From Cristatella mucedo (taxonomy: Eukaryota > Bryozoa > Phylactolaemata > Cristatellidae): 64,000 nt of DNA. Below the pieces are notes generated by a model. It searched no databases. It saw nothing but the letters and a program-made list of their open reading frames with translations, and had not been told where the DNA came from. This document shows positions 3,990 to 58,547 of the stretch, piece after piece. Numbering within the stretch: the stretch's first letter is position 1; every line of letters starts with the position of its first letter. A program made the position numbers and the translations under genes. The stretch spans positions 3,506,001 through 3,570,000 of the forward strand of contig WPIO01000007.1 of the NCBI GenBank assembly GCA_009760855.2. The letters run 5' to 3'.

Positions 3990-4075
3990 ATAAATAATAA
4001 TAATAATAACAATAGTAATGCGTCTGACATAGGGCCCTCGGAGAACTCAATCTGCTTCTAGGCACTTTAAATATA
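3990..4075 (-). mobile_element. LINE-A tail-only relic
   Basis: AAT repeat followed by a degraded stem-loop (GGGCCCTCGGAGAACTC). Lies downstream of the receptor stop codon. Confidence 0.55.
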
Positions 4076-4673
4076 AATACCGTGTTAGGCTAAGGTTTGC
4101 ATTGAAAAAGAAATGCTTAAAATTTCAAACTTTCGAATTTGAGCATAATTTTATTTTCAAACTTTCAGCTTCACTTTCACCCAATTAGGACGTTCCTGAT
4201 CTGATCGCACCTGATCGCGCGGGTCTGAGCCAGTGTGCAGGTGAGAATCATGCTACACTGCAGTGACATGGTTCGCTTTAATGAAAAACCCAGTTCCTAT
4301 GACAAACGGCCAAGTCAGCATGCTCAGACCACAGCTGCAACTTGGAAGCACTGAGACTGCGGACCAACACATAACTATGAATAATATTAAAAAAATAGAA
4401 AAATATTTGGGCACATTCCAGCTAGTATGGCATGCTGGCACTACTTGGCACCACTCAGTCTAGCACTAGCACAGGACTGACAGCTAGTGGTGCTAGCACT
4501 AAGACTCTTATTCGCCACATTACCATAAGCACCTTTTCTTACTTGAGCACAGAATGCCCACCACGGCCACGGCTCCCACATGCAAAGGGACCAGCTAGAG
4601 CTAAAAACTGTGTCGACACTGAAACAGCACATTGACGTACAACATCAGCAACGAAGGTTGTTAGAGTGAAGGG

Positions 4674-4865
4674 TCAGGTGAAATCGGCCACACGGGGCTG
4701 CATGGCACCAATCAGCGAGCTGCGCTCGGAGGCAAGTTGTGACGTCGAATTCTGCCTTGGCAGCATCCACTGAGGCACTCGATCGCGCATCAGCTTTCGG
4801 ATTGCCCTCGTGGTGAAAATGAAGACCAAGCAGTTGAGCAATCCTTGAGAGCTGTCACCCATACC
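4674..4865 (-). CDS. GPR157: GPR157-like exon 4 (TM7 and C-tail)
   Basis: The acceptor ATGTGATTGCAG|GGT is at 4866/4865, phase 0. The exon codes residues 302-364. GMGDSSQGLLNCLVFIFTTR completes TM7 and matches the family's GxGxxxQGxxNC pattern; then comes a short basic C-tail (RAIRKLMRDR) and TGA at 4676-4674. The tail is Ser/Thr-containing and has no further domain. A poly(A) signal could not be assigned with confidence; an AATAAA on this strand lies near 4150. Confidence 0.83.
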   Translation of the reverse strand, partial: GMGDSSQGLLNCLVFIFTTRAIRKLMRDRVPQWMLPRQNSTSQLASERSSLIGAMQPRVADFT

Positions 4866-7800
4866 CTGCAATCACATGAACATGTGATGTGCCTGTCTCC
4901 TGCTAACAGCACCGATTGATGCACCGACGAGTGCTTGCTCTTTGTGCCGACGCATTGGCTGCGCTGTATAGCTCACAAGCAGAGAGAAATAGTCCAAATA
5001 TTTAAGCACAACTTGAAACTCCTCGCAGCCGAGAAGACTAACTGGCCGTCAAACGAAAATGTTGGCTCATGCACATGCACGTGCCGTAGGTAGCACCGCT
5101 TAAGGCACCGCAGGCAGTCAGCATACACGATCGGCAAAGAAGAAATACGAGAGCAAATACATAGCTGATAAAGTAGATCGCCTGAAAAAAAGCAGCGCAG
5201 CGGCATCGACAAAAGTAAAGAGTGGTATCGATGGCACACAAAGTAAAGTATCTCCTCAAAATAGCAGTGAACGACAGTTTCACCGTGGGCCTGAGACTGC
5301 CACAATGGTGGACCTTGCAGACCCAGTTCACCCGGTGCCAACAAGATCTGGTAAATAAACAATAAATAAAAATAAATCCTAGCTGATTAAAACAGCCTCT
5401 TTTTGCATAGCGACAGAAGAGTCTTTACGGCTATCGCCACCACTTGCAGTGGGGATAAAGGATCGCCCACCACAGGAATCGAACCCACGACCTCGGGACC
5501 GAGGTCGTGAAAGCAACCGCCTTGCCTAGTGTGCCATCACGGCTCACCTAACTCACACCCCCCCGTCAGCATTTAGGACCAAGTCCTCACAATTCCAACC
5601 GGATTGGATGCATGTCACCTCTAACCACTATATATGCTTGTTGGCATTGCGCATTTTACCAATAACCATTTGATCATGCTTTCTTTGCAGCAAATGTAAA
5701 GTGCCTAGAAAGAGATTAATTTATCTGAGGGTGCTATACAAATTTGTTATTATTATTATTATTGAGCAGAAATGGGAATCTCGAGTACTGTTTTCGAGTC
5801 ACGTGATAGTACACACTGCTAGATTTGTACTTTATTAGGACTCTAGATAAATTGTATTTGACCATCGTTTGTGGACAGTATGTGATATTTTCCAACCTGC
5901 AATAACCTTGCATCCTTCAAGTCTCAGCTCAAAAGGCATCTTTTTCCGTTAGCTTCCCCTTCGCCCCAGTGAACCTGCTTTTTTTGTTCTGTGTGTGCTA
6001 TCATTGCATGTGTGTGCATGATTCAGGGCATGTTACTTGCCATGGGTCTTACTAACCGGTGGCCACGGATGTCTCCGTGTTTGCTTTAGCATGATGGCCT
6101 AAGCATGATACTTGTATGCTTTTGTATGCTTGATATTTATATTATACTAACCATTGGGTACTGATTCTCCTGCAGTGAGCTGTAAAGCACCTCGGTAAAG
6201 ATTAAGTTCCCTTAGGATGCTATTCAAACAACCTATCACTGCTAGATTATTAGACCTATAGAAAATGACCATCATTCCCCTTAAGCTTTTGTTTTGTTGA
6301 GCAGGAAAGCATACATGTGATAATTTTACCCCATTAAAGTGACGGAAGTGATAAATTTGAAAATTACTTTGTCTCGGGACACTGCAGATACAGCTATGGC
6401 CCAAAGTAAGGTGCTAAGTAAAAAGATATTTTTGCATTAATGCATATTTTTTGTACGAGTTCACACAACTAAATTATAATTTAATAAAACCCTATAAAAA
6501 TCAATGGCCATAAAAACTGTGCTGAAAAATATACTTTTATTCGTCTACCTTAACTGTTAATCATTGGATGGAATCTTTAAGGCATGGTACTGATCAGTCG
6601 TTATAGGCGTCACAATACATATATACATCATAACATATGCATCACAAGTGGTAATATCTTCCTCATTGATATTGCATGCGGTTTTAAAGCTCCGGCTTTA
6701 AGTGGAACCGCCCTGAGTTCAAGAGCACCGAATGAAAGGTAGTCTCGATAGCTCAATCCATTACAGTAAACAGCTAACAAAGAGGTTGCCGGATCGTTGC
6801 CAGCTCCAAGCGAAATTCTTTTTTTGCACTCACTACAATGACAGACGGTGTATGGTCGCTCTGTGTTTTGAAAATATTTCGTGTGCCTGATATGTTATAT
6901 CAAGTTCTGTACGTGTGTACAATATAAACTGTTGGTAGCCTCCGAGTACCTACTGAATTTTTTCCCTAAGCTATATGATGCAAACAGCAAAGACGATGTC
7001 TTTGAGGAACTACAGATACAGAAGACAATACTGCTATGCATTGCAGCATCCTGAGACAGGCATGCAAAAGCAATATCATTCTTGGACCAGCATGCGAAGC
7101 ACACAAAAAGGCACTCGGACCACGGGTTAGCAGGACCTCTGGTTAGTAGCAATGCACTGAATCATGCGTAGGTAAGTATGCAAAGCACCCAGGGTAAAGT
7201 GAAAGTTAAAAAAAAATTAACTGGGGCTCAAGGAAAGCTGAGCGGGACTGATATGTCTCTAGCTGAGACTTAAATTATGCAAGATCAATGCAGGTGGTAA
7301 TAGAAGCCGGAAGCTAGTTCCAGACGAACAGAACAGCCTGATCACCAAAAGATATCTAGTTAGTGCAAGGATTGGTGAGACGACTGGAAGAGCAGGGTGG
7401 GGCAAGAGCCTGACACTGGTAGAGCAATAATGTAATGTAAAGTAATTTATCTTTATCTGTAACTCCACAAAGTCATAAAGACCATGTGGGTGCTACGCAG
7501 GAGAGTTTTGTATAGCGAACTCACAGCCTAAGGGGCTTTCTGTATGCATTCGGTAGCCAACAGACTTCATCTCACACAACAAAGATGAAGTAGGAAGCAT
7601 AGCCGAGTAAGGAGCTGAGGTAGTGAGTAGCATGGACGTAGCAGCTCAGGACCGCTGAAAAGGATGAGCCATAGTCGGCAGCAGGAGAGTAGTTGGCTGA
7701 CGCTAGCTAGTAAAGCGAATTGAAAGCCAATGGGAGGATTTTGAAGTCAATTCGATACTTGATACCAAGCCAGTGAAGCTCAGATATAAGAGTTGTATGG

Positions 7801-10800
7801 TGTGGCAGCTACCCTGTTGACTACAAACCAGACAAGCTGCGCAAGGTTTCGCACTAATTTATTAAGGAGCTTAGGCCAGTAGTCCTGGATAAAAGGCAGA
7901 GCAGCAATCTAGATGCCATGCCACGAGCGAGTAATAAGGTCCTATTTGTGGCAATGCTTGTAAACTGAAAGTAGGACGACTATATGGTAGAGGCAACGCG
8001 CTCATCCAATGCTAAGTCGTTTTTGAAACAGCAAACCAAGATTACGGGCAGTCGCCACAGGAATGATGCTAGATGAATTTGTTTTTCAGGTAAGGTTTTC
8101 CAAATCGAGGCTAGTTCATAGTACTATTGGATTGGTTTCATCGTCACTCGAGCCTCGAGAAGTTATTGGCCATCCATGTGTAAATGACTTCAATGGATGC
8201 TGCTAAGGAGTTAATTGAGTCGGATAGGAAGCAAGGATGAAAGGGCTAGAAGAATAAATAGAGCTGAGTGCTATATGAGCCAGGATTGTATTTCGCGATG
8301 ACATCAGCTGGAAGAAGAGTGCAGCTAGTGAAAAGAGGGTCTAAGACCGAACCCCGAGGTACCACATACTTAAAGGGTTCGCCGGATGACAGATGGTCAT
8401 TTACATTCACTCTCTAACAGGCCCTTCCAAGTCCACATGCTTGATGCTCATCTTGGTAAGTTCAAGAATGTGGCCGCTTACTTAAAGGAACATGGTGAGC
8501 ACTCCCAGCCAGATTTACTAGACTTGAAATGGAGCTACCAAGGTCAGTAAAACAAGAACATCATGGGAGACTATATTTTGGGGCTGATTTACTAAGTACT
8601 CATACATTTAGAAAAATACTTAGAGCCAAATCTTGTGGGGCCACGTTTGTGCAACTTGAATAAAAAGATATTTTAATCGTAATTTCATTGGGTTTTTTCT
8701 GACGAAATTTTTACCTGAAGACAATAATTCTGTAGACGTTTTCTAATTAGAAACGGGTATATTTCAAGTGAATAACTGCCCTGGCAACTAAAGAACAGTT
8801 TGAGGGGCTAAACGGATCTTATTTCTGTACTATTGATGCATAAGAAATAAGGAAGTAATCTAGATTGCGCTGCAATAAAATTTGCTTTCCTTAGCGTGAG
8901 TTTGCATTTTTTTATAGTAGAATATCATCCAAGATCTGAAGTACTAAACCAAAACAATACTAAACATGTAAAGCAATGCATTATTGTGGCCTTTAATATA
9001 AGTAACAGACAGACAGCTTCCATAAGACTGCATACAGGAATGGCTTTGCTACAGCGCCTACAGGTTAAGGAGAAGCAAGCGGCAAAGAATTGGGCAAAAC
9101 GTTCAAACGCTCTCAGTGACCGATCTCAACATTTAGCATTAGCTTCCTTAACTTCAGAAAAGGCAATCTAATCTTGGTTGAGATGTGGGGTTTTAATCAA
9201 CTTTCAATAGTGTAACCAGTTATAAAAAATAGGACAACTAAAGTCCGAGCAATTGTGATGGTCGCACATCAGAATCAGCCACAAGAAGAACAGTTTCCTT
9301 GCATAGCGAGCAGCAGGCTAGGGTGCCTTGTGATTAGGAGTTCGATTGTACCGTCGTTTAGTTTAATGAAATTGGCCACAATTCAGTAACAAATGACTGC
9401 AAGGTAAGTACCCGGTTCATCAGTCGCTTCAGCACAATCCAATGGTTAAACGATGAATACAGCCGAATACTGTCAGCGTTGGGGACCCCACCCGACCCGA
9501 ATCCCAGACCCAACTTGTCCCAGAGGCTCGGTATAAATGGAGAATAGCAAAGGATCGAGGATGGACTATCGTGGAACTCTGCAGATGACTGGTGCGCACA
9601 CTTCTGTATGCCTCTATGATTGCATGCAGTCTCTCTCTCCATATATAAAAATTCTTCCAAACGTGGGCTTCACAGCCACACTAATTACACTAATCTATAT
9701 GGAATAGCTTACCTGCAGTGGAGCCATGTATTCACTCACAATCCACAACAAATTTTGGTCGTTTGCCGAAGGAAAGCTTGACATATTAGCTGCATTCAGG
9801 ACGAATCTTACTATTCCGAATATTCGTGAAATAATAAACACAAGTGGCACGAATAGCAGCTTTCGGCTTGCATACTTGTAAGTCGTGTCGGTATCCCAGT
9901 TCGAGCTGGGCCACTGAGCAGCTTGTTGCGACTGCAAGAGAGCAATGTAATGTAATGTATCTCTGTCTGTAACTCCACAAAGTCACAAAGACTATGTGGG
10001 TGTTACGAAGGATAGTTTTGCATAGCCCAATCAAAGCTTAAGCGGCTTTAGGTACGCATTCGGTAGCCAACAGACTTCGTCTCACGCAACAAAGAGAAAG
10101 TGGGAAGCATAGCACAGTCAGCAGAACAGTCGAGGTAGTGAGTAGCATGGAAGTAGCAGCTCAGGACTGCTGAAAAGGATAAGCCATAGTCGGCAGTAGG
10201 AGAGTAGTCGTTGTTGCATAAGAATCGTGGAAGATTCCACAAGAAGAGCTCCACAGTCTAGGACCTGCAGAGCACAAGCTTCTGTCACCAGGTCTAAAGG
10301 TCTTAAAGGTCTTTAAACGAAGGAATGGAACAGCTAGTTTATTGTCCATACAGGACCTGAAGGCACAAGGAGGCTGGAACTAGAGCAGCAGTTCAGCTAA
10401 GTATGGAGGAGCCAAGCCCCTGCAGGCTTTATGGGTCAGCATAAGAACTTTGCTCTGTATAATTTATTCAACCGTCAGCCATCTTTAAGCATCTCTGTTA
10501 GCAAAGGAGACACGAGGTCAAACCTCTGGAATTTTCAAACCAGCCTTGCAGCAATATTCATAGCCATCTGCAGAGGCCTAGTTGCTTTTTACGGTAGCCC
10601 AGCCAGAAGGGAATTACAATAATCTAGCCCACACAGAACTAAAGAGCTAGTTAATTTTTTGCAGGCCACCGTGGAAGACAGTTACTAATTTTAGATAGTT
10701 ATCGGACGTGAATGGCTAGCTGTAGATGCAGACTTCTGAATGAAGCTTTAACAATGTAGGCAGTTGCCGAAAAACGGCACCTAAATTTCGAGCACGTGTT

Positions 10801-13800
10801 GATGATCGCACATCACCTATTAGAAGAGCAAAGCATTTTAATCTAGCCACACGCTTAGGGTGTCCTATGAGCAGCAGTTCAGTTTTATTGTCATTTAGTT
10901 TTAAGAAGTTTTCCGACATCCAGGATCTAATGTCAGCAAGGCAAGCATTCAGTTTATCAGTTGCTACAGCAGATTCCAACGGTTTGAATGAAAAATACAG
11001 CTGAGCATCGGCAGCATAGAAGTGATATCCTACTCCACGGGCCTTACTTTTCCGAGGGGTTAAGGATAAGTGGAGAACAGCAAGGGACCGAGGGCGAGAC
11101 CCTTGAGGGACTCTACAGTTGACCCGTCTCGCTTGTGAGACCTGACCTCCACACGACACGGATTGAACGAGATCAGATAAGTACGATTTGAACCACGCCA
11201 GTGCCTCGTCTGCCAGACCGATTATTGTTCTCAATCGTTCAAGTAGAACATCGTGATCAATGGTGTCAAAGGCAGCTGACAAATCTAGCAGAGCTAGGGC
11301 ATTAAAATTCCCGTCATCGTTCCTGCATAGGACGTCATTAATAACACGGAGGAGTGCCGTTTAACTGGAGTGCTGCCGCTTGAACCGTGATTGAAAGTTT
11401 TCTAACAGCAAGCTGGCTGAGGCAACTCAATCGCCAACTGTTTGCTTACTGGGTAGGCCAGTGCTAAAAACAGGTCGCCGGTCACTGTAACATGAGCATA
11501 TGGGGATAGCACAGTTCTCGGCGGTAGCTCATCAGCAAGACTGAGACAACAAGGCAGCCCAGATGCTTTCAATGTAGCTCTGTAAGCACGACAGTGAAGA
11601 GGGGCCAGAATCTAGAGCCCCGGTAGGCAGGCCAGACGAACCTAGAAACACAGGCTCCAAAGACCTGATTCCACAAACAACCGAAACAGCTGAAACAAGT
11701 AAAACCACACTCAGTGGCTTAGACATGCTCACTTCAATGCTGCACTCTGCCAAGCAGACATGTACAGAGCAGGTTAGCCGGCCCAGCTAAAGCAAGGCAG
11801 GTCTACGATTGCTGCCCCCCCCCCAGTGACACTGCCACTGTTGCTGCTGCCGATGCTGCCAGAGGGGCACATTGATTATGACACAAGTACAGGCATGCTC
11901 TTACCTGTCGGTGTATCCGCCTCCACGACAAGAAAAACAACACCACGGTGATGGCTACAGTGAGCACCTCGTATGCCTTGCCCGTGACAAGCTGCCAGAT
12001 GAACGTGTTCGATCCGTTGTATTTGCTATTAGCATCACCATACTGCCTGCGTACCCAGCACCAGTAGATGGTGCATTGGTCGTACCCGAACTGTCCCTGT
12101 GAAGCAGTTATGGTGACGATTGTAATGCCCATGCCCCAGCATAAAAAGTGTGACAGCACTGCAAGTCGTCGTGTCACATAGTCGCTTCCACGGACTGCTG
12201 TCACGAATATATTGACAGCAATGACCACCGACCAGCTGAAACTGGATATGCTTGAGAATGTCGACCAGGCAGCCTGAACTTGGCAAGCCATGTCGGTCTC
12301 GGGTGAGCTCCAATCGGATGCCAAGTCAGTTCTGAGGGCAAACCTGAGGACACACAGAGCCCATGAGACATCAGCACAAATCCTGCGCCAGGAGCTGCAG
12401 AAACAGGTATGTATAAAAACCAGCACTGGCATGAAAGAAGGGACGACCAAACATAAAGGTATGAACATGTAGGCGTGTGGCCCCGATCGGTGAAAAAGAG
12501 TTACTATGTTCATGCCCTGGCATATAATAATAATTATTAAAATACACTTAATAAAGTGCCCTCAGAGAACTTAATCTCTTTCTAGGTGCTTTACATTTGC
12601 TGCAAAGGGAAATGCAATTGAATGGTAAGTAATATCATGCTTGATAAACAAACAAAATGAATAATATGGTTAGGGGTGACATGCACAGGGTCAGCATGCA
12701 AATGTGGTTAGTGGCAGCATGCACAGTGTCAGCACGCATAAGCACATCAAGGACAAATCACAGGGACCCACTAAATGCTGTCCTAAATAGGTTGTTTTTA
12801 AGTTCCTTTTAAATGTGGTCACGTCAGGGGATGTTCTGACGCAGGTCGGGAGGAAGTTCCACGCATTGGGAGCATTCGAACTAAATGCACGGTTTCCAAA
12901 GGATTTAAGGTTTGTACGAGGTATTTGTAGACTGTTGGATTCCGAAAAGCGGGTGGTACGATGATTGGCCTGATGGGGTAGTATATCTGAAAGATAGGCT
13001 GGAGCCATAGAATGAAGGGACCTAAAAGTGAGCGACAAAACCTTGAAGTCAATCCGTTGCTTGACTGGTAGCCAGTGCAGGTCGGCGAGAAGTGGTGTGT
13101 TGTGGCAACAGCGACGTTCACGACAGACAAGCCTAGCTGCAGAGTTTTGCACCAGCTGCAATCGTCTGATCGCACATGCTGGTAGGCCAGTAAGCAGTGA
13201 CTTGCAGAAGTCGAGACGGAATGTCACGAATGCATGGACCAACTTGGACGTGGTATCCTTATCTAAACAAGCCCGGCATGGCTCACAGATCCAAATCTTT
13301 TAACAAGCCTATGAGCTAGGCACATACTCTCAAACTTCACCTGCTGCATGGATGCAGGAGAACATTAAGCAATGTGTGGTAAAAGTGAAATTAAGGTCGG
13401 CAGATTTAACAGCCTCGATTACCGTTTACAGCAGCAGAAACGTGCTTATGCGTGCTGACACTCTGCATGCTGCCACTAACCACATTTGCGATGCTGACCC
13501 TGTGCATGTCACCCCTAACCATATTATTCATTTTGTTTGTTTTTCAAGCATGATTTTACTTACCATTCAATTGCATTTCCCTTTGCAGCAAATGTAAAGC
13601 GCCTAGAAAGAGATTGAGTTCTCTGAGGGCGTTTTATCAAGTGCATTATTATTATTATTATTATTAAAGCATTATAAGCTGATTTAACAGCCGCATTTGT
13701 ACAGCAGAAGAGGAGCCTTAATGGCCATCACCACCATTTGCAGTTGGCAATAAGGGATCGCACAGTGATGGATCCCGGTCGTGAAGAGCACGAGTCTTAC

Positions 13801-15425
13801 CTCCTGGGCTATCACGGCCATAGGAGGTGAGCCGTGATGGCACACTAGGTAAGGCGGTTGCTTTCACGACCTCGGTCCCGAGGCCGTGGGTTCGATTCCT
13901 GCAGTGGGCGGTTCTTTATCGCCACTGCAAGCCGTGGTGATAGCCGTAAAGGCTCTTCTGTCGCTATAAAAAAGAGGCTGTTTAATCAGCTAGGATTAGA
14001 GACAATTACCTGGCTTGCAATGGGCAATAAAAGATTACCCCATGCAGGACTCGAATCCACGACCTGGTTTGTGAAGTGAGCATATAACCCCTAGCCCCCC
14101 CCCCCTGTTTGTTTCGGTTACGCCGCTCCAGCTGCCCTTCACGCGAGTTACAAAGGCACTTAAGGCTTGCAGCACGGTCTCCGCTGCCCCAGGAGGCTAA
14201 AAAGTCGCAATAGTAGGCAAGGTCTCCGCCTCCGCAGCTTCACTAGGGCGGGTAAGCTCTGCCCGGGAGCATACGGCTTGCTTGGGCAGGGGTGAGCCGT
14301 AATGGCTCACTATGTAAGGCGGTTGCTTTTCACGACCTCGGCCCCGAGGTCGTGGATTCGAATCCTGCGGTGGGCGATCCTTTATCGCCACTGCAAGAGG
14401 TGGTGATATCCGCAAAGGCTCCTCTGTCGCTATACAAAAAGAAGCTGCTAAATCAGCTAGCATTTATTTATTTATTTATTAGACGTCCTAAAAAAACCCG
14501 GCTGTTACAGTCTCGGGCCTTGGGTGGCAGCAACGACCTAAATCTCCTAGTTCATAATTTCGCTGAGGCTACGAGCTTATCTTCTATGCTTTTCACAGAG
14601 AATGGCCGTAAAACAGCAATCAGCAAGTAACAAACTTGCTGCAAACGCGATCTGAAAGTGAGAAGGCACCCTCCAGCCTATGTGGACCCGCCAAAGTCAA
14701 GGTTCCGCCTGGTTTGGAGAACTCCTGGGTTGGCAGTCATCGAGTTAAAGGTGCCTCGCTTGATAAACGCCAACTTCGAGACGCTGGGAAGACCAGTTGG
14801 TAGGCAGATCTCTGCTCGCAGCCCAAGAAGTACGGATGTAATTAATACACGGCTCCGAAGCAAGCAAAATACCCACTTCCTGCGGCCGATATAGGCACCG
14901 GGTCAAACGGTGAGCTTGCAAGCGCTTTATCGAGTGTCGCTAATACTTGAGGCGTATCGTGTCACTGACGCGAGTCACGTCCGCAGCCAGGCAAGCGCGG
15001 TAAGCACGGCCCAGCCGCGCGCGGTAGCGTTTCGCGCTTGCGCTGACCGCGAGCTCGCCCCAACGCCGAACCTGCGGCGGCGACTCAAGAGCCGACAGAT
15101 GCCGTCAAAGGCGGCGCTCCGGCGAGCGAGCGCGTGGCGCGGCGCTCGCTCGCCGAAGCGCTGCGCGAAGCGCAACCTACCAGCACAGACCGGCGAGGTT
15201 GCCGGCAGCTGTTAGGAAGTCGGCAACGGACAAAAAGACCAGCAGTCTGCGGCCCGGCGAGCGTATGTCCTTCACCCGGGCGTAAAGGGCGACAATGCTC
15301 GAAGACCCGGCCATGGACAGGACGGCGAAGAGCAGCGACGGCCAGAAGTAGAGCTGCGTAAGCAGCCCGCGCGCATACCGACCGCCCCAGTCGTCGGACC
15401 ACGAGCAGTTGCTTCCATTCGTCAT
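4674..15425 (-). CDS. GPR157: GPR157-like seven-transmembrane receptor, four exons
   Basis: The CDS is join(15425-15181, 12343-11905, 9931-9713, 4865-4674) read on the minus strand: 1095 nt, 364 residues plus TGA. Seen: GT-AG at all junctions, matching phases (2, 0, 0), and seven hydrophobic segments at roughly residues 22-48, 61-81, 102-130, 143-163, 196-222, 253-273 and 290-322. Family signatures include RRLLVFLSVADFLTAA in TM2, STFSSISSFSW in TM3, GYD...WCW in extracellular loop 2, a TGK segment opening TM5, VPLVFIISR and VRFVL in TM6, and QGLLNCLVFIFTTRA in TM7. The length is close to vertebrate GPR157 (about 335). Known: GPR157 is a plasma-membrane or ciliary orphan receptor linked to Gq signalling in vertebrates. 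The N-terminus has glycosylation sites NGS and NCS. Inferred: expressed and functional, since no stop or frameshift is seen. A GPR157 paralogue is the main alternative. Introns are 2837, 1973 and 4847 bp and full of LINE/SINE copies. Confidence 0.88.
5380..5549 (-). mobile_element. SINE-1 (tRNA-derived)
   Basis: On the minus strand: a head GAGCCGTGATGGCACACTAGG, B box GGGTTCGATTCC, then the conserved body (CTTTAT, GTGGCGATAGCCGTAAAG, CTTCTGTCGCTA) and 3' end GCTGTTTTAATCAGCTAG. Sits in receptor intron 3. Confidence 0.82.
5590..5765 (+). mobile_element. LINE-A 3' end
   Basis: 3' UTR module (ATGCATGTCACCTCTAACCA), TTTGCAGCAAATGTAAAG, stem-loop and (TTA)n. In receptor intron 3, antisense to the gene. 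Confidence 0.75.
5890..6240 (+). mobile_element. LINE-C 3' end
   Basis: Short C-terminal coding block (FKSQLKRHLFPLASP then TGA) followed by a 3' UTR with CATGATTCAGGGCATG and a degraded stem-loop AAAGCACCTCGGTAAAG...CTTAGGATGCTATT. It resembles 44640-44915 and differs from LINE-A and LINE-B. Confidence 0.55.
6260..7424. other. Receptor intron 3, unique AT-rich part
   Basis: No repeat or exon recognised. The frame at 7152-6895 (minus) has no splice support. Confidence 0.5.
7425..7690 (-). mobile_element. LINE-B 3' end
   Basis: Minus-strand tail (GTAATGTAAAGTAA) and hairpin region (GTAACTCCACAAAGTCATAAAG...GCAGGAGAG), then the C-terminal coding block. In receptor intron 3, same sense as the gene. 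Confidence 0.75.
7700..8450 (-). mobile_element. LINE-A-like RT relic
   Basis: On the minus strand, recognisable LHWLxxKYRIDFKIL near 7780, and near 8350 a degraded GSV-type motif B followed by ADVIAKYNPG. Many stops. In receptor intron 3. Confidence 0.6.
8460..9229. other. Receptor intron 3, unique part
   Basis: AT-rich; no element or exon recognised. Confidence 0.5.
9230..9645 (-). mobile_element. LINE-B-like RT relic
   Basis: Blocks matching LINE-B RT in the same order (antisense of LLIGHP, the conserved LKLND stretch and the motif B region near 9545). Highly decayed. Just downstream of receptor exon 3. Confidence 0.55.
9713..9931 (-). CDS. GPR157: GPR157-like exon 3 (ICL3, TM6, start of TM7)
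   Basis: The acceptor GCTCTCTTGCAG|TCG is at 9932/9931, phase 0. The exon codes residues 229-301: the third intracellular loop, RKLLFVPLVFIISR of TM6, FVLNAANMSS, and the beginning of TM7. The donor CCACTGCAG|GTAAGC at 9713/9712 is phase 0. A LINE-B 3' tail ends only about 12 bases before the acceptor dinucleotide region. Confidence 0.86.
9944..11420 (-). mobile_element. LINE-B, 5'-truncated, in receptor intron 2
   Basis: Same sense as the receptor gene. It contains SAAFDTIDHDVLLERL, ALAWFKSYLSD, a frame-disrupted PQGS region, YAAD in place of YADD, FLKLNDNKTELLLIGHP, the C-terminal block, hairpin and the ACATTACATTACATT tail. The tail ends next to the exon 3 acceptor. Very similar to 26400-28296. 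Confidence 0.85.
11905..12343 (-). CDS. GPR157: GPR157-like exon 2 (ECL1 to TM5)
   Basis: The acceptor is TGTGTGTCCTCAG|G at 12344/12343 and the first base completes the Trp codon begun in exon 1. The exon codes residues 83-228: extracellular loop 1 with Cys102, TM3, TM4, the long loop 2 with GYD, Cys172, WCW and a further NGS glycosylation site, then TM5. The donor CGACAG|GTAAGA at 11905/11904 is close to consensus, phase 0. Cys102 and a loop-2 cysteine are the expected disulfide pair of a class A-like fold. Confidence 0.88.
12523..13275 (-). mobile_element. LINE-A 3' half in receptor intron 1
   Basis: Starts with AATAATAATAATT, stem-loop, 3' UTR modules, and C-terminal RT coding from SKLVHAFVTFRLDFCKSLL onward. 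5'-truncated at about 13275. The 3' end lies about 180 bp upstream of exon 2. Confidence 0.82.
13445..13667 (+). mobile_element. LINE-A 3' end, inverted partner of 12523-12760
   Basis: Carries the 3' UTR modules, TTTGCAGCAAATGTAAAG, stem-loop (about 13596-13636) and (ATT)n. Opposite in orientation to the neighbouring copy. Confidence 0.78.
13678..13822 (-). mobile_element. SINE-1, decayed
   Basis: Minus-strand SINE-1 body and 3' end (GCTGTTAAATCAGCTT). The head is damaged around the B box. Head-to-head with 13827-13999. Confidence 0.68.
13827..13999 (+). mobile_element. SINE-1, well preserved
   Basis: Head GAGCCGTGATGGCACACTAG, arms CGACCTCGGTCCCGAGG, B box GGGTTCGATTCCTGC, body TTTATCGCCACTGCAAG, GTGATAGCCGTAAAGGCTC, 3' end AAAGAGGCTG...ATCAGCTAG. 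Confidence 0.85.
14000..14085 (-). mobile_element. SINE-1-like fragment
   Basis: Minus strand shows GGTCGTGGATTCGAGTCC (B box) then a TTTATTGCCCATTGCAAG body. Diverged; no 3' end. Confidence 0.55.
14286..14482 (+). mobile_element. SINE-1 with (ATTT)n 3' end
   Basis: Complete head, B box GGATTCGAATCCTGC, body, GCTGCTAAATCAGCTAGC and a short (ATTT)n tail. The tail shows how this SINE terminates. Confidence 0.83.
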
Positions 15426-15570
15426 GGCTCCGGCAGAGTAGCGGACAACCGAAGCTACAGCCCGCCTCGCCGATAGCGGCGACGGCCCGCTGCCGGTGCG
15501 AGACTGTTCTCGGGCAGGACTCTCTCGGAGAGCGCGCGCAACGCGGTCTTTCAGCGTCGCCTCACATGAC
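14960..15570 (-). promoter_or_regulatory. CpG-rich segment around receptor exon 1
   Basis: The sequence becomes markedly GC- and CpG-dense here compared with the AT-rich flanks. It covers exon 1, its presumed 5' UTR and the start of intron 1. Inferred to be the promoter or first-exon CpG island of the GPR157-like gene. No TATA box was identified. Confidence 0.4.
15181..15425 (-). CDS. GPR157: GPR157-like exon 1 (N-terminus, TM1, TM2)
   Basis: Codes residues 1-81 plus two bases of codon 82. The ATG at 15425-15423 is the first in-frame ATG of its open stretch and has G at -3. It is followed by N-glycosylation sites NGS and NCS, then TM1 and TM2. The donor is TGCTG|GTAGGT at 15181/15180, phase 2. 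Reading through gives TGG TAG, so without splicing the protein would stop at once. Upstream in-frame sequence (15572-15426) is open but has no ATG and is GC-rich, so it is probably 5' UTR. Confidence 0.87.
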
Positions 15571-15599
15571 ACCCACGATCACGGAAGTAATCAAACCGG

Positions 15600-16530
15600 A
15601 TGTATTAGGATGAGGCCTGTGCGTTATACCTCCCCCCTGCCAGTCCCCGCCCCTCCCTGCAGAGCGGTGCGTCTGGCGATCCAGATGTTTTCCAGGGTTT
15701 AGTCAGCCGCACCCGCGAGGCAGGTCACGAGACGTTGCTGCCGAGTCAGCTGAGAGCTCGCCGGCAGACGCAAAACAAGCCAAATTCGAAAGGCCGCGGA
15801 AAGAAGTCGGGCCAGGGTTTTGGGGGACGGCGTTCCTTAGTAGAGTGCCCGGCTCGCGTCGCTTCTCCCACGTCTTCGTTCTCGCTCGACGCAGCCCTGC
15901 GAAGTCTTAGCGAACCTTAGGCAGTTGCTAAGTCGCAACTGCCTAAGGCTTATACACGCCTGAGATCCTACCGGTCACACTCGCGCACTCGTAGAACCCG
16001 GCTGCAGTTACTCACGATTCGCCCTTCCGCGTCGATCGCAGGATCCGGCTGCGCAGAGACAATGTCTGTCTAATCGCTTCACAGAATTCCCTCTTTCGGC
16101 GGACGGGAGGTGTTGTATGACAGTGTCTCAGGCGGCGGCTGTTCTAGCGGGAGTCTCACGGAGACACAGCGGGCGCACGCGTGCGGTAAACGAGACTCTG
16201 CTTTATTACTCCCAACTGGCACATATATGGAAGCCCGATCAATCGCAGCAGACGACACGAAATACAATCTGCATTAGTGGCCCAACGCTGCACTGCTTCA
16301 ATGGCTTAACTATTGGCCACAGGTGAGGCATGTACATTAGTGTCGGGCGCTTCACTAATTACAGCAGCAGTAGCCGCACACGCACACAGCAAAGGCCTAG
16401 CAGCACTGGGGACGCAGCCACGGAGTCGCGGGACGAAGACTGCCGCGCCCCAACGTGCGGTGGACAATTCGACACACTGGAGCGTCTCTCTAGCTCTCCA
16501 TCGAGCAGTTGATTTTAACCATGCTTCCTT
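15600..16530. other. Sequence upstream of the receptor gene
   Basis: GC-rich near 15600-15900. Includes a direct and inverted AGGCAGTTGCTAAGTCGCAACTGCCT palindrome-like segment at about 15917-15946. No gene recognised. Confidence 0.45.
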
Positions 16531-26379: not shown

Positions 26380-28296
26380 GCCAATGCTGAGCTGTCTGAT
26401 TCCCCAGAGGTTTAACGATTTAGCCGAAAGGTTTTCAGCCTTCTTTAGTGAAAAAATTGTGCTCATTCGTGCCTCCATAAAGCCCCCTCCGAGTAAATCA
26501 ATAGTGGAATCACAAACTGTGATCTTTCTTAAAATGTTTTCCGATGTTTCTGCGTGCGATGTGGTTTAATAAGGTCTAGAAAATAAGCTCGTCTCCTGGA
26601 AACCCTATACCATCATCTCTGTGGTCTTCACTAGTAGATATACTTGACCCTGCCATGACCGAGACTTTTGGAAAAAGAAGATATACTCAAGTCCTTCTAA
26701 TCGGTAGTTGTTAGATCCATACTTAGAAAGCCCGGACTAGATACAGAGGTCCTTGCAAACTATCGCAGTTTTCCATCTTACCTTCTTGTCAAAGATTCTT
26801 GAAAAAATTGTTGCTAAGCAGCTGGTTGCACATATTGAAAATTATAAAATGTCAGAAACATTTCAATCAGGGTTCAAGAGGCAGCACTCCACTGAAACTG
26901 CTCTCCTCCGTGTTAACAATGACATTCCCATGTGGCAACGATGACGGGAATTTCACTGCCCTAGCTCTGCTAGATTTGTCAGCTGCCTTTGACACCATTG
27001 ATCACGATGTTCTACTTGAACGATTGAGAACAATAATCGGTCTGGCAGACGAGGCACTGGCGTGGTTCAAATCGTACTTATCTGATCTCGTTCAATCCGT
27101 GTCGTGTGGAGGTCAGGTCTCACAAGCGAGACGGGTCAACTGTGGAGTCCCTCAAGGGTCCCGTCCTCGGTCCCTTGCTGTTCTCCACTTATCCTTAACC
27201 CCTCGGAAAAGTAAGGCCCGTGGAGTAGGATATCACTTCTATGCTGCCGATGCTCAGCTGTATTTTTCATTCAAACCGTTGGAATCTGCTGTAGCAACTG
27301 ATAAACTGAATGCTTGCCTTGCTGACATTAGATCCTGGATGTCGGAAAACTTCTTAAAACTAAATGACAATAAAACTGAACTGCTGCTCATAGGACACCC
27401 TAAGCGTGTGGCTGGATTAAAATGCTTTGCTCTTCTAATAGGTGATGTGCGATCATCAACACGTGCTCGAAATTTAGGTGCCGTTTTTCGGCAACTGCCT
27501 ACATTGTTAAAGCTTCATTCAGAAGTCTGCATCTACAGCTAGCCATTCACGTCCGATAACTATCTAAAATTAGTAACTGTCTTCCACGGTGGCCTGCAAA
27601 AAATTAACTAGCTCTTTAGTTCTGTGTGGGCTAGATTATTGTAATTCCCTTCTGGCTGGGCTACCGTAAAAAGCATCTAGGCCTCTGCAGTTGGCTATGA
27701 ATATTGCTGCAAGGCTGGTTTGAAAATTCCAGAGGTTTGACCTCGTGTCTCCATTGCTAACAGAGATGCTTAAAGATGGCTGACGGTTGAATAAATTATA
27801 CAGAGCAAAGTTCTTATGCTGACCCATAAAGCCTGCAGGGGCTTGGCTCCTCCATACTTAGCTGAACTGCTGCTCTAGTTCCAGCCTCCTTGTGCCTTCA
27901 GGTCCTGTATGGACAATAAACTAGCTGTGCCATTCCTTCGCTTAAAGACCGTTGGCGACAGAAGCTTGTGCTCTGCAGGTCCTAGACTGTGGAACTTGCC
28001 TCCACCATTCTTACGCAACGACAACTACTCTCCTGCTGCCGACTATGGCTCGTCCTTTTCAGCGGTTCTGAGCTGCTACTTCCATGCTAATCACTACCTC
28101 GACTGTTATGCTGACCGTGCTATGCTTCCCACTTTCTCTTTGTTGCGTGAGATGAAGTCTGTTGGCTACCGAATGCATACCTAAAGCCGCATAGGCTGTG
28201 AGTGTGCAATACATAACTCTCCTGCATTACGTCCACATAGTCTGTATGGCTTTGCGGAGTTACAGACAGAGAAACATTACATTATGTTACATTAAC
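26380..28296 (+). mobile_element. LINE-B, longest copy
   Basis: Begins in the region before the RT (RFNDLAERFSAFFSEKI), then FQSGFKRQHSTETALLR, an ALLDLSAAFDTIDHDVLL motif A, the frame-disrupted motif B, YAAD at 27240-27251, LKLNDNKTELLLIGHP, C-terminus and ACATTATGTTACATT tail. The largest open frame is 26799-27542. RT is predicted dead because the first YADD Asp codon is GCC (27246-27248). Confidence 0.87.
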
Positions 28297-41430: not shown

Positions 41431-41469
41431 ACAGTGAGAAGAGGAAGGTACGAAGGGTAAAGACTATAG

Positions 41470-41603
41470 GGAGGATATCACTTTGTGGGTGGAATATCTT
41501 ATTTCTTTCTTATATGGAGGATATCACTTTGTGGGTGGAATATCTTATTTCTTTCTTATATGGAGGATATCACTCTGTGGGTGGAATATCTTATTTCTTT
41601 CTA
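41470..41603. repeat. 46-bp tandem repeat, three units
   Basis: Units start at 41470, 41516 and 41562 (GGAGGATATCACTTTGTGGG...). The first two are identical and the third has one CTC/TTC-type change and a shortened end. Confidence 0.93.
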
Positions 41604-50852: not shown

Positions 50853-52083
50853 CATAATAATAATACAGTTGATAAAGCTTCATCAGAGAACTCTATATAT
50901 ACTCTAATCTCTCTCTATGCGCTTTACATTTGCTGCAAACGAAACGCGATCGAATGGTCAATGGTAGCATGCTCAATAAACAACAAGAATAATATGGTTA
51001 GGGGTGACATTCGCAGGGTCAGCATGCAAGTACGGTTAGTGGCAGCATGCAGGGTCAGCACGCATAAGCACATAAAGGACGAATCACGGGGACTTAATTA
51101 ATTCACTTGATGCTGTCATTAATAAGTGCGTTTTTAATTTCTGTTTAAATGTGGTCAAGTCAGGAGATGTCGTGACGCAAATCGGGAGTGAGTTCCAGGC
51201 TTTGGGAGCATACGAATTAAATGCACGGTCTCCAAAGGATTTGAGGTTCGTACGAGGTATAGGTAACAGTTAGATTCCGAAAAGCGTGTGGAACGATGCA
51301 TAGCCTAGTTGGGGAGTAGATCTAATAGGTAGGCTGCAGCCAACGAATGAAGGGACCAAAAAGTGAGTGACAAAACCTTGAAGTCGATGCATTGCTTTAC
51401 TGGGAGCCAGTGCAGGTCGGCAAGAAGTGGTGTGATGTGGCAACTGCGACGCTCACGACAGACAAGTCGAGCTGCAGAGTTTTGCACCAGCTGTAAGCGT
51501 CTGATTGCACAGGCCGGTAGACTAGCAAGCAGTGAGTTACAGAAGTCAAGATAGGATGTCACAAATGCATGGACCAACTTAAATGTGGTATCTCTGTCAA
51601 AACAAGCCCAAATTTTAGCAATGTTATGGAGTTGAAAGTGGGCAGGCTTGCTTGTCGACCTGATGTGGTCGTCCAATGAAAGGTCACTTTGGAAAAGGAC
51701 ACCTAGATTTCGTGCAGACTCAACAGGACATGGACTGGCAGAGCCGATTGTGACCATTAACCTAACCAATTTCTTAATCACACTTTGTTTGTTCATTACT
51801 ATTAAGTTGGTTTTATCAGCGTTCAATTTAAGTAAGTTTGCTTCCATCCATGTACGGACGTCATCAATACATGTAGCAAGGGAGTTAAGAGAATTCGTCG
51901 TGTTCGGTGGTTTGTGAGGGATCATAGCAAAGGTACAGCTGAGTGTCATCTGCATAGAAGTTAAACCTAGATTGTGCCTGGCAATCACAACGGCAAGAGG
52001 GAGAGTATAAACCGTGAAAAGAACGGGACCAAGCACACACCTCTGTGACATCTCCTACTTCAGAGGCTCCTCAAATGATCTGT
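50853..52083 (-). mobile_element. LINE-A 3' half
   Basis: AAT repeat, stem-loop, 3' UTR modules and a long open frame (52051-51305) from SQRCVLGPVLFTVYTLPLAV to LLDLLPN. The motif C segment is frame-shifted (LGLTSMQMTLSC). 5' break inside motif B. Confidence 0.84.
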
Positions 52084-52214
52084 TGTTAATTTTATCAGCC
52101 GCAATTTACAATTAAAGTCGCCACATAAGTACGAAGCATGAAATAAAAATCAAACAAGTACTAAAAGGATTTGGGTGCTGCAAAAAGTAGTTCTTCTGGC
52201 CTATCCAATGACAA

Positions 52215-52515
52215 ACTGACAGACGGTGCAAAATTATGCCGCCAGGCTCGTCTGTCTTCAAGTCGCAACTGCTGAACTAAGCTATTTCTCACGGATCTGC
52301 ATTAGCTATTCGTTAAGACTTGAAGGCTGTGTCACTTGTTGCTCCCTGTATCCCGTTGCTATGGCCTGCCTACCTGGTCTGAAACACCTGCTAATTCAGG
52401 CTTTTCATCGTTCGCTCCGCTTCGTGCCTTCCGTCGCTTCAAATCCTTCGGAGACCGTGCTTTCCATTCCAGAGCAGTAAAGTCTGGTGCTCACTACCGA
52501 CCTACGTAAGTACAT
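52215..52515 (+). mobile_element. LINE-A relic
   Basis: Plus-strand C-terminal block (ATTATGCCGCCAGGCTCGTC...). Decayed. Back-to-back with the following antisense relic. Confidence 0.55.
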
Positions 52516-53540
52516 TCCCAGACTAAATGCTGTGATGAACAGATTTTTATTGTATCTTCTGTCTAAATGTTGTTGTTAAGTCAATGGCGCCAGTCTGGAG
52601 TGGATTCGAGGCTTTTTGGAGCATACGAAGTACACTTCGAGAGATTTAAGGTTGGTTCGAGGAATAGCTCACGACTTGACACAGTAGAGTACGTGCTAAG
52701 GTTTTTCGCCTGATTTGGAAGTAATTCGGATGGGTGGGCTGGCGAAAGAGAATCAAGGAGCCTAAAATTGAGTGGCGAAACCTTGCAATCGATTCGCTGC
52801 TTGGGCCAGTGCACGAATGGTGAGTTTCGTAATTTGGCAACTACCGGGCTCATGACAGACAAGCCTAGCCATGGAGTTTCGCACCAATTGAGGCGCCTTA
52901 TTGCACAGGCAAGGAGACCTGTAATAAGTTCGAGGAGTCGAGGAAATGTCCCAAATGCATGGACCAACTTATATGATGGATCCCTGACCAACCACACAGG
53001 AATGTGTGCAGAGCTACAAAGCTGAAAGTAGGCAGACTTGACTGTGGAGCATCATGCGGTCGTCTAGTGAAAGGCCACTTTGGAACAGAATTTCGTGTAG
53101 ATCCAAGAGGAAAGATATTGTACGAGCCCATGTTGAGGTATAGGTTTTCGTATTTCTGAGTAACAGTAAAATGCCCATCGCTAGTAAGTTTGTTTTCTCG
53201 TAATTCAATTTGCGAAAGTGTTGTCGTCTTATTCCAAATGTCAGCAATACGTGCTGCAAGAGAGTTGGGAGATCTTGACGTCCAGGAAGTCAGGCAGAGT
53301 TCAGAGCTCAGGAACAACAGCGTACCATCTGCATAGAAAGGAAAGTCTGGATTGTGTTTGACAATTGCATCGGTAAGAGGGATAGTGTAAATTTTGAAGA
53401 AAAAAGGTGGACCCAATAGAGCACCGGCGTATCCCGTACTTTACAGGCTCCGAAGACGATCGTGGCCAGCCGACATCGACGCCAGCTGGTGCTATGTGCT
53501 GCCAAACATTCCTAGAATGGATTCCAGGTCGACTGTCAAG
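52515..53540 (-). mobile_element. LINE-A-related relic, divergent
   Basis: Antisense C-terminus through RT. Frames at 52997-52581 and 53416-52898 show FPFYADGT (motif C, second Asp lost) and LHTxLCGW-like blocks, with motif B remains near 53430. More diverged than the other copies; similar to 1-455. Confidence 0.62.
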
Positions 53541-54951
53541 GTCGACTGGCAAGTTTAACTGTCTAATTCCCACTGGGTGGGCTCCTCGCGCTGTCGAAAC
53601 GATTCGCCAGTTCAGCATTGCTCCTAGGTCGTTTTGGTACGAGCAGCGAACTGTTCTAGAAGAAAAGCCCGGGCAAGTCGGTACGAAAATACTGACAGTT
53701 AATTCTTGGAGTCCTAATTCAGCTTTAATACGGCAGCTGCCCCGTTTTTAGTGTCGGCCTCAATAGACTCGACCGAGATCACGCGAGATCCAGGTGCCAG
53801 CGCCAGCTTTGAGCCCCGCCTCTTCAATCTGTCGGCGACGCTAGAGCATTCTAATTGCCCTCCTCAGCTCGGTTGGAGAGAGGCAGGCCGCCGCCGCCGA
53901 GCCGCCATAACTCGCCCGGTCTGGCTCAACATGAGTGGGCCGCCGCTGCCGCTACCACGGCGAGCTCTGGGCTTCGAGCTCGTCAGAGCAGGCCTCAGTA
54001 AACACCGAACGCTCGGCTCGGCTGTTGACACAAAAGCTTTAGCTGGCCGTCTCGTGCAGCCTCGTGCGGCGCTGGTCAGACGGTTTATTCTTTATTCTGT
54101 CACCGAGTCGCGGGTCAGCTGCTGCTGCCTCCCTCCCCTTGCTTTGTCTACGCTCGGCTGCAGTACAGCCGCTGCCGCTGCCGCCGGCTGCCCTGCCCCT
54201 CTGACTCGTCACCCCCGACCTGCTTAGCGAATTCGCACATCGCGGGCCGCCTTCCTCCTGGATGGTTGCACCACAGTACTTCCGAACGAAAGCCGAACAC
54301 GACTGGCCGCCATGTGGGAACCGACGGGCAGACGACGACAGCCTCGACCCAGGCCAGCTGCTGCTGGCCGACAAATATCTAGTGCCGAAGAAAACACCAC
54401 AAGCGTTAATTAATGGCCAACGTGCCTCGGGGTTGACACTTAGTCGGTCACCTTCAGCAAGGATGCAGCTGCAGTGCTGCCATGCAAGTGACAGGCGCCA
54501 CTCGTGGCAGGCAGCTAGTGCTAGAGAGTTCGTGCGAGTGCTTCGGGCGGGCGTGGAAAATACAATGCATCGGCACTCACCGTTTAATCTGGGAAGAGTT
54601 TCGGCAAGCATGCCTGCGTTGTGCACAAATGGTCAGTCAGCCGTATACTTCGAGGAGGCTGCCTGGAAATAAGTGGAGAGCTCCAGACACCGAGCCCCAA
54701 ATCCCACGGATAGAGCTAGAAAATTCCTTTAAGATCCGGGGCGGGGCGAGCAAATCAATACAGTGGGTTGCAGATGGGAGCATATGGTCGCAGGCCACGA
54801 CCAAGCCGGCTACCAGCGTGAGGGGGACAGAGAAGCAGAAGAAAACTGCAGTGCAGATACGATACGTAGAATTGGCTGAAGTAAGAAAGCACCAGCTGAG
54901 AAGCTAGCCGGGGCAAAGTGACTAAGCTGTAGAAAAAGCTCAACCCGCCGG
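53541..54951. other. CpG-rich stretch, possible promoter
   Basis: GC- and CpG-dense from about 53750 to 54400 with open frames on both strands (53751-54227 plus, 54626-54039 minus), as expected of a CpG island rather than proof of coding. Could be the 5' end of a gene that owns the candidate exon at 56085. Confidence 0.35.
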
Positions 54952-55036
54952 GAGGCCAAAGCGCCTAGAAAGAGATTGAGTTCTCTCAGGGCGCTTTATC
55001 AAGTGCATTATTATTATCATCATTATCATTATTAAG
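54952..55036 (+). mobile_element. LINE-A tail-only copy
   Basis: A clean stem-loop AAAGCGCCTAGAAAGAGATT...GGGCGCTTTATC and (ATT)n-type repeat with almost nothing upstream: an extreme 5' truncation. Confidence 0.8.
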
Positions 55037-55959
55037 GCATGAAAAAGTGGTTCGAGGGGGAAAAGGCCACGGCACTTGGGCTGGGGCAATAGCAGTCGGA
55101 CTGTCACCGTGTCACACGATCGAAGCCCTCCCATCTTCACCGTGCGTTAGTTTGATGAGAGAAACCTATGTAATACTTCGGATTAGGCAAGTGAATCTAG
55201 GAGGTACAGCCGCCCAGTGCCAAAGACGTGAAGTGTTCTTCTCCAACTCCAATCACCTAAAGAAGGAACAGCCAACCCAGAGTGCACCAACGTTGAGAAG
55301 AAGTAGAGACAATGATTGCGACAGAAATTGAGAAACAGGTGGAGAGAGCACATGCGAGGCAGTCACGAGGAACCAAGGTGGTACAGACGGCGATGTAATA
55401 TTGGCAGGCCAGCGGTGCAGCATGCCAATAGTGCAGCCTGGTCTGAGAGACTGCCAGTCTACATGCTCCCCCTCTAGACCTGTTCCAATCATGTTGTGCC
55501 ACACAGTACGACACAGGAGCAAAGTTATATCAACGTGCTGCCTCTGCTCTCTGTTGGGTATGGTTCGAGATGGCAACTACTCAATCATTTATCGATGTAT
55601 TAGCTAGTTCAGCTGCCCTAGCGTAGGCACATTCGCAGTTCTACCCATCGCAATGCTCTGCCTGCAGAAGCTGATCAGTGGCCTTGACTTGCAGTGATGA
55701 CTAGCAGTGACTTGTTGCTGACCTATCTGGCGGGTCTCCTTACGTCGACCATTAGAATTTTCCATTTAGCAAGTTTTTGTATCTCAATAGGAGCCAAAGG
55801 CAATGTGGCCAAGCACATCAAACTGCTTGTCCTCAAGATACTTCGATGGACTACGTCCGGCGCATTTGGACTTGCACAAGTTAGGCTACCACCGGACCCG
55901 TGTGTGTAGGTGTGAACTGTACGCACTGCTATGATATTACTCACCATCCATTCAACTGT
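55037..55959. other. No gene assigned
   Basis: Frames on both strands at 55253-55607. The plus frame is cysteine-rich (RCSMPIVQPGLRDCQSTC, then TCCLC) but lacks a convincing acceptor, and the minus frame is equally open. Confidence 0.4.
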
Positions 55960-56079
55960 GCGCACATGATATTACTCACCATTCAATGGCATTTCCCTTT
56001 GCAGCAAATGTAAAGCGCCTAGAGAGAGATTGAGTTCTCTGAGGGCGCTTTATCAAGTGCATTATTGTTATTATTACTG
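55960..56079 (+). mobile_element. LINE-A tail-only copy
   Basis: ATTCAATGGCATTTCCCTTT, TTGCAGCAAATGTAAAGC, stem-loop and (ATT)n ending next to ACTGTGCAG at 56076-56084. Confidence 0.82.
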
Positions 56080-57677: not shown

Positions 57678-58547
57678 CGGAACTGCTGGAGACACGCAGA
57701 ATGGCTGCTGCTGTTCCTTGCAGCACCCTGTAGCCGCCGCGGTGGCCGGAACCGCCAGCTTAGACGCTGCTCGTTTGGTATTCCTAGCATTGTCTCGAAC
57801 CGCTTAGCACGCTCCCCCGCATGCGTCACTGTAAATCTCTCAAACTTAGTGGTCATCAGGCCTGTTGTAACCCAATCGGCCAGACTTAACGCTTGCCTTT
57901 GGAATCCTCGCTCAATGTGCAATAAACCTCTAGTAATAAACGACCTTATTTCTGAAAATGGTATCGACCTGCTCGCCCTAACTGAAACTTGGCTGAAATC
58001 GATAAACTGCCCGACAATTAAAGACGCTACTCCATCTGGTTTCACGTTCTTTCACACCCCTAGATCAATCAAAACTGGAGGTGGAGTTGCTATGATCGTG
58101 CGCTCGAAATTCAACTTCAAGCCATTTGCGGTACCCTCGAAGCAGTCTTTTGAATCAATTGTCCTGGTCTCACCCGAAAACAAGCTACCGATAGTGGCAG
58201 TAGTCTATCGCCCACCAGGTACCAAATCCTCCTTTATCTCAGATTTCTCCGATCTCATTTCGATTCTGTGTGCAAGAAATCGATCCTTCCTCGTTATGGG
58301 TGATTTCAACGTTCACTTTGATAACTTATCTGACGCTTTCAGCACCGAATTTCGTACATTGACAGACTCATTATCTCTTGTGACTCATGTGCATGGCCCT
58401 ACCCACATCAAGGGTCACACACTCGACCAAATTTTTTCTCATATAACTGCACTTTGTCATCACCAGTTATCACCAAATCCTGCTTATCTGACCACATGCA
58501 GATCTCATTCAATCTACAGTGTGTGCCCACATTCTCCTCTAAAATAA
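57678..58547 (+). CDS. LINE-A APE-type endonuclease part of ORF2
   Basis: Open from just after a TAG at 57675. Recognisable endonuclease begins at LNACLWNPRSMCNK and includes LLALTETWL (catalytic Glu), GGGVAMIVR, VVYRPPG and LVMGDFNVHF. It nicks target DNA for priming. The frame leaves the homologous reading near 58435, so the last ~37 residues to 58547 are an out-of-frame extension. The start codon is uncertain because no ATG lies at a conserved position. Confidence 0.8.
   Translation, partial: RNCWRHAEWLLLFLAAPCSRRGGRNRQLRRCSFGIPSIVSNRLARSPACVTVNLSNLVVIRPVVTQSARLNACLWNPRSMCNKPLVINDLISENGIDLLALTETWLKSINCPTIKDATPSGFTFFHTPRSIKTGGGVAMIVRSKFNFKPFAVPSKQSFESIVLVSPENKLPIVAVVYRPPGTKSSFISDFSDLISILCARNRSFLVMGDFNVHFDNLSDAFSTEFRTLTDSLSLVTHVHGPTHIKGHTLDQIFSHITALCHHQLSPNPAYLTTCRSHSIYSVCPHSPLK

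Follow-up and report, generated by a model that had tools for sequence, protein, structure and literature searches.

Gene model and flanking features

The receptor gene described here lies in a 64-kb stretch of DNA, which is called the window throughout, and consists of four minus-strand exons of 245, 439, 219 and 192 nt separated by introns of phases 2, 0 and 0. The exons and the features around them are collected in Table 1. Joined, the exons give 1095 nt, which by spliced translation encode 364 residues followed by one terminal stop, and a GT donor and an AG acceptor are found at every internal exon border of the gene. An earlier sequence-only reading of this DNA had proposed four separated minus-strand frames with GT-AG sites, matching phases and a product of 364 residues, and joining the exons bears this out at the same coordinates.

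Table 1. Features of the receptor gene and its flanks (positions in the window)
Feature	Position	Strand	Evidence or remark
CpG-rich stretch spanning exon 1 and its upstream side, putative promoter	15001..15900		GC 0.62-0.69, CpG observed/expected 1.0-1.36
Exon 1, coding: ATG, N-terminus with two N-glycosylation sequons, TM1, TM2	15181..15425	-	donor CTG/GTAGGT
Intron 1	12344..15180	-	53% of bases repeated elsewhere in window
Exon 2: TM3 to TM5, ECL2	11905..12343	-	acceptor CCTCAG/G, donor CAG/GTAAGA
Intron 2	9932..11904	-	74% of bases repeated elsewhere in window
LINE copy, sense to gene, RVT_1 match	9944..11407	-	Pfam and pairwise repeat alignments
Exon 3: third intracellular loop and TM6	9713..9931	-	acceptor TTGCAG/T, donor CAG/GTAAGC
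Intron 3	4866..9712	-	22% of bases repeated elsewhere in window
Exon 4: TM7, basic stretch, C-terminal tail, TGA stop	4674..4865	-	spliced translation
AATAAA, candidate poly-A signal, 518 nt past stop	4150..4155	-	sequence match

Compared with a 9-base donor consensus, the three donors of the gene score 7, 8 and 8; on the minus strand of the gene span, 4 of the 603 GTs reach a score of 8 and 14 reach 7. The pyrimidine share ahead of the acceptors of exons 2, 3 and 4 is 0.65, 0.71 and 0.53, respectively, and because of the last value the exon 4 acceptor is considered weak; the start of this exon is nevertheless fixed, since an in-frame stop lies beyond two open codons upstream of the acceptor. 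In-phase alternative acceptors are present for exon 2 (at -51, -39, +12 and +36) and for exon 3 (at +18 and +57), so that the starts of these two exons and some of the junction residues are less certain.

In the flanks, an ATTAAA occurs 391 nt past the receptor stop codon, in addition to the candidate poly-A signal of Table 1. Upstream of exon 1, at 15915-15948, a short inverted repeat, CCTTAGGCAGTTGC and GCAACTGCCTAAGG with a 6-nt loop, was seen by eye.

Transmembrane topology, profiles and motifs

The protein displays seven 19-residue hydropathy peaks above 1.0, six of which are at least 1.63, TM7 being the lowest at 1.16. The basic stretch TTRAIRKLMRDRV after TM7 was looked at as a candidate helix 8, on its sequence only. 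In Pfam, the joined protein scores 33.8 bits on Dicty_CAR over aa 93-284 (E 2.7e-8), above the cut-off of 21, and it reaches 7tm_2 with 19.5 bits (cut-off 20.6) and Srsx with 11 bits (cut-off 24.1), both below threshold; these three families, the only ones at E up to 1, are all 7TM families, and no other domain appears. As a control, the reversed receptor protein gave no Pfam family. Exon 2 alone supplies 29.4 of the 33.8 Dicty_CAR bits and exons 1 and 2 together 28.1, exon 1 alone reaches only Srsx, below threshold, and exon 3, exon 4 and exons 3 and 4 together have no Pfam match. Among PDB sequences, the two matches were to adhesion receptor V1 (E 0.0055) and to a melatonin-related receptor (E 0.46). 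The peaks, together with a Dicty_CAR score above its cut-off, agree with the 7TM protein of the sequence-only reading.

Three motifs are attributed to GPR157 in a 2025 survey (PMC12716839): LLxxLS[LVI]xD in TM2, WCW[IVL] in ECL2 and QGxxNxIxF in TM7, the last of which it presents as conserved and not as a requirement for belonging to the family. In the receptor, the TM2 motif is present exactly (LLVFLSVAD, aa 61-69, exon 1), as is the ECL2 motif (WCWV, aa 176-179, exon 2), and the TM7 motif is present at 4/5 fixed positions (QGLLNCLVF, aa 308-316, exon 4), with Leu replacing Ile. The GPR157-type motifs claimed earlier are therefore there, two of the three published ones in exact form and the remaining one with a single conservative substitution. 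The TM2, ECL2 and relaxed TM7 patterns each occur once in the six frames of the 64-kb window, where the strict QGxxNxIxF has no match; the mean counts in simulated windows (n=60) were 0.08 for TM2, 0.27 for ECL2, 0.13 for the relaxed and 0.07 for the strict TM7 pattern.

The receptor was aligned over aa 31-324 with a provisional human GPR157 sequence, not a database copy, which makes the comparison a lead. Identities number 97/300 and positives 156/300, with 37 gap columns; the score is 97.4 bits, and 1000 shuffles gave at most 25.4 bits. Junction 2 falls within an ungapped stretch. At junction 1 a gap of 9 columns opens, and another of 6 columns closes two residues ahead of junction 3, with a strong match after it. 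Because of these gaps, only junction 2 and the residues past junction 3 are supported without gaps nearby. The provisional human protein has all three strict motifs and passes, in Pfam, 7tm_2 (49.1), Dicty_CAR (41.6), 7tm_1 (35.6) and Frizzled (31.4); as a consequence, the Dicty_CAR profile cannot separate GPR157 from cAMP receptors.

Introns and repeat content

Introns account for 9657/10752 bases of the gene span, which matches the earlier figure of about 90 percent. The accompanying claim that much of this is LINE and SINE stood in part: 4055 of these bases (42%) have a counterpart elsewhere in the window (E 1e-5 or better) and intron 2 has an RVT_1 match, but the SINE content is read from repeat form only, because ARAGORN detected no tRNA gene in the window and no Rfam family reached its gathering score there. 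Intron 1 contains an ORF, at 12691-13299, that by eye resembles the LINE reverse-transcriptase ORF 58334-60718 and has no Pfam match. Repeats are also seen in intron 1 at 13825-14480, where the arm 14347-14389 holds GATTCGAATCC; this we take to resemble a tRNA-type B box of the kind present in tRNA-derived SINEs. The introns were probably enlarged by insertions of the LINE and of other repeats, and a gene amid transposon debris is nothing unusual in an animal genome rich in repeats.

Elsewhere in the window, a long LINE copy lies on the plus strand at 57678-60718. Its endonuclease ORF (57678-58547; Exo_endo_phos, E 3.1e-12) is overlapped in another frame by a 794-aa reverse-transcriptase ORF (58334-60718; RVT_1, E 3.2e-31), and several other window ORFs read like parts of this element. 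Of the 40 window ORFs of at least 130 aa, 12 were scanned with Pfam, as were the receptor exons. Three tandem 46-bp units, 97% matching, occupy 41465-41602, and a second stretch of raised GC (0.507) extends over 52001-56000; the two ORFs scanned there, 53718-54227 and 54039-54632, matched no Pfam family with an E value of 0.01 or below.

A LINE beside the exon 3 acceptor

The ORF of the LINE copy in intron 2 and that of a copy at 26727-27542 agree at 202/216 positions (94%). Compared at length, 9948-11407 and 26850-28284 belong to a single LINE and show 93.8% identity across 1461 columns, a value that suggests a fairly recent spread. In six pairwise alignments the 3' tail of this LINE ends 12, 12, 13, 16, 16 and 21 nt ahead of exon 3, and beyond one common point the six tails, when aligned, no longer agree. 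These gapped alignments put the end of the element at 9944 to 9953, and an ungapped repeat search gave 9934. The tail is also present at seven other sites in the window; at five of them it extends to roughly the same end, and the other two are partial.

Because the LINE ends 12 nt before exon 3, the branch-point region of intron 2 would be LINE-derived if the junction is used. The ATTAC repeats of the tail differ by one mismatch from the metazoan branch-point consensus yUnAy, and no AG is found between offset -29 and the exon 3 acceptor. Should the modelled splicing of exon 3 be correct, the ATTACATTACATT tail of the element would be the most likely site of the intron 2 branch point. We tentatively suggest, at somewhat less than even odds, that the LINE displaced the native branch-point region and that splicing of a conserved receptor exon now uses the ATTAC-repeat 3' tail of the element as its branch site.

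In human and mouse introns, transposable elements near exons are reported to be underrepresented, and among mutagenic human L1s four of five are described as lying near acceptors and four as sense-oriented (PMC3088655). A LINE so near the acceptor could impair the splicing of exon 3. If the LINE branch site were used partially, exon 3 would be skipped in frame and a TM6-less, possibly dominant-negative isoform would result. The position of the element, the one mildly unusual feature of the gene, offers a natural test of how much retrotransposon proximity a splice site tolerates.

Interpretation of the locus

We interpret the locus as an intact, intron-bearing animal gene for an orphan GPCR of the GPR157 family, with a probability of about 0.88. 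The GPR157-like identity proposed earlier gains support from the Dicty_CAR match, from the motifs in exons 1, 2 and 4 and from the alignment to the provisional human GPR157 sequence. The gene appears to have no second copy in the window, where 0/1095 exon bases match elsewhere (E 1e-5). Searches were also made outside the animals: exon 2 (146 aa) had no pattern match among viral contigs and 30 pattern matches among prokaryote genome contigs, none of them confirmed by tblastn, and the whole protein had no match among phages, all of these being places where animal genes are not expected.

That Dicty_CAR is the best Pfam profile could also mean that the protein belongs to a sister family, the metazoan cAMP-receptor-like GPCRs, and not to GPR157 itself; the 2025 survey does describe cAMP receptors in diverse metazoans as similar to GPR157 (PMC12716839). 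We consider this improbable, since the provisional human GPR157 passes the same profile with 41.6 bits, its alignment to the receptor covers aa 31-324, and the motifs published for GPR157 are found in three of the four exons. A chance chain of unrelated open frames is hardly credible. Open frames are common here, as 110 stop-to-stop frames of at least 50 aa overlap 4000-16500, but profile, motifs, donor scores and alignment all agree, and multiplying the three simulated motif means gives about 0.003 even before the same strand and the correct order are required. The Dicty_CAR match, with its negative reversed-protein control, contradicts such a chain.

The gene could instead be decaying, the LINE having displaced the native branch point with the effect that exon 3 is skipped and exons 2 and 4 join in frame into a TM6-less product. 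The closeness of the LINE tail, which ends at 9944 where exon 3 starts at 9931, and the phase 0 of both introns 2 and 3 would allow this, and the depletion of transposable elements near human and mouse exons, with mutagenic L1s near acceptors (PMC3088655), points the same way. All four exons are nevertheless open, without frameshift or stop, the ATTAC repeats are close to the branch-point consensus, and the interval from offset -29 to the acceptor is free of AG, so that decay is very unlikely. Under the preferred reading of an intact GPR157-family gene, the analysis provides a clearly bounded gene model, of use in annotation, for an orphan receptor that is widely conserved but has been little studied; neither the gene model nor the position of the LINE would surprise a specialist.

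Proposed function

Mouse GPR157 is reported to be located in primary cilia and to have no known ligand, and its overexpression to raise calcium via Gq and IP3 (PMC4855140). By analogy with the mouse protein, the receptor would be a plasma-membrane protein, possibly on ciliated cells, and would sense an extracellular ligand. Its activation may then be passed from Gq to phospholipase C and IP3, leading to calcium release.

Comparison with known receptor families

With secretin and adhesion receptors, the likeness of the window protein consists of the sub-threshold 7tm_2 score of 19.5 bits and the weak PDB match to adhesion receptor V1; unlike them, it is without an extracellular domain in Pfam, and its N-terminus is short. 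With Dictyostelium-type cAMP receptors and plant GCR1, the latter itself proposed as GPR157-like (PMC11843928), it shares the Dicty_CAR profile match over aa 93-284, whereas its motifs point to GPR157. A text search of the literature returned no paper combining GPR157 with Dicty_CAR. Among invertebrates, a GPR157-like transcript is mentioned in the oyster (PMC9892467), and GPR157 is mentioned in a paper on a sea anemone (PMC13319465).

From GPR157 itself the protein differs in having Leu for Ile in the TM7 motif and, by comparison with the provisional human sequence, in nine extra residues between TM2 and TM3 and in missing 7tm_2 and having no 7tm_1 or Frizzled match. Like GPR157, it has seven transmembrane segments and no other domain, a similar length (364 residues, against 335 in the provisional human sequence), the TM2 and ECL2 motifs exactly and the TM7 motif nearly. 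GPR157 is stated to occur in most metazoans and in other eukaryotes (PMC12716839), and the receptor is therefore a further member of a known family; as far as its sequence tells, it is an ordinary member of a widespread one.
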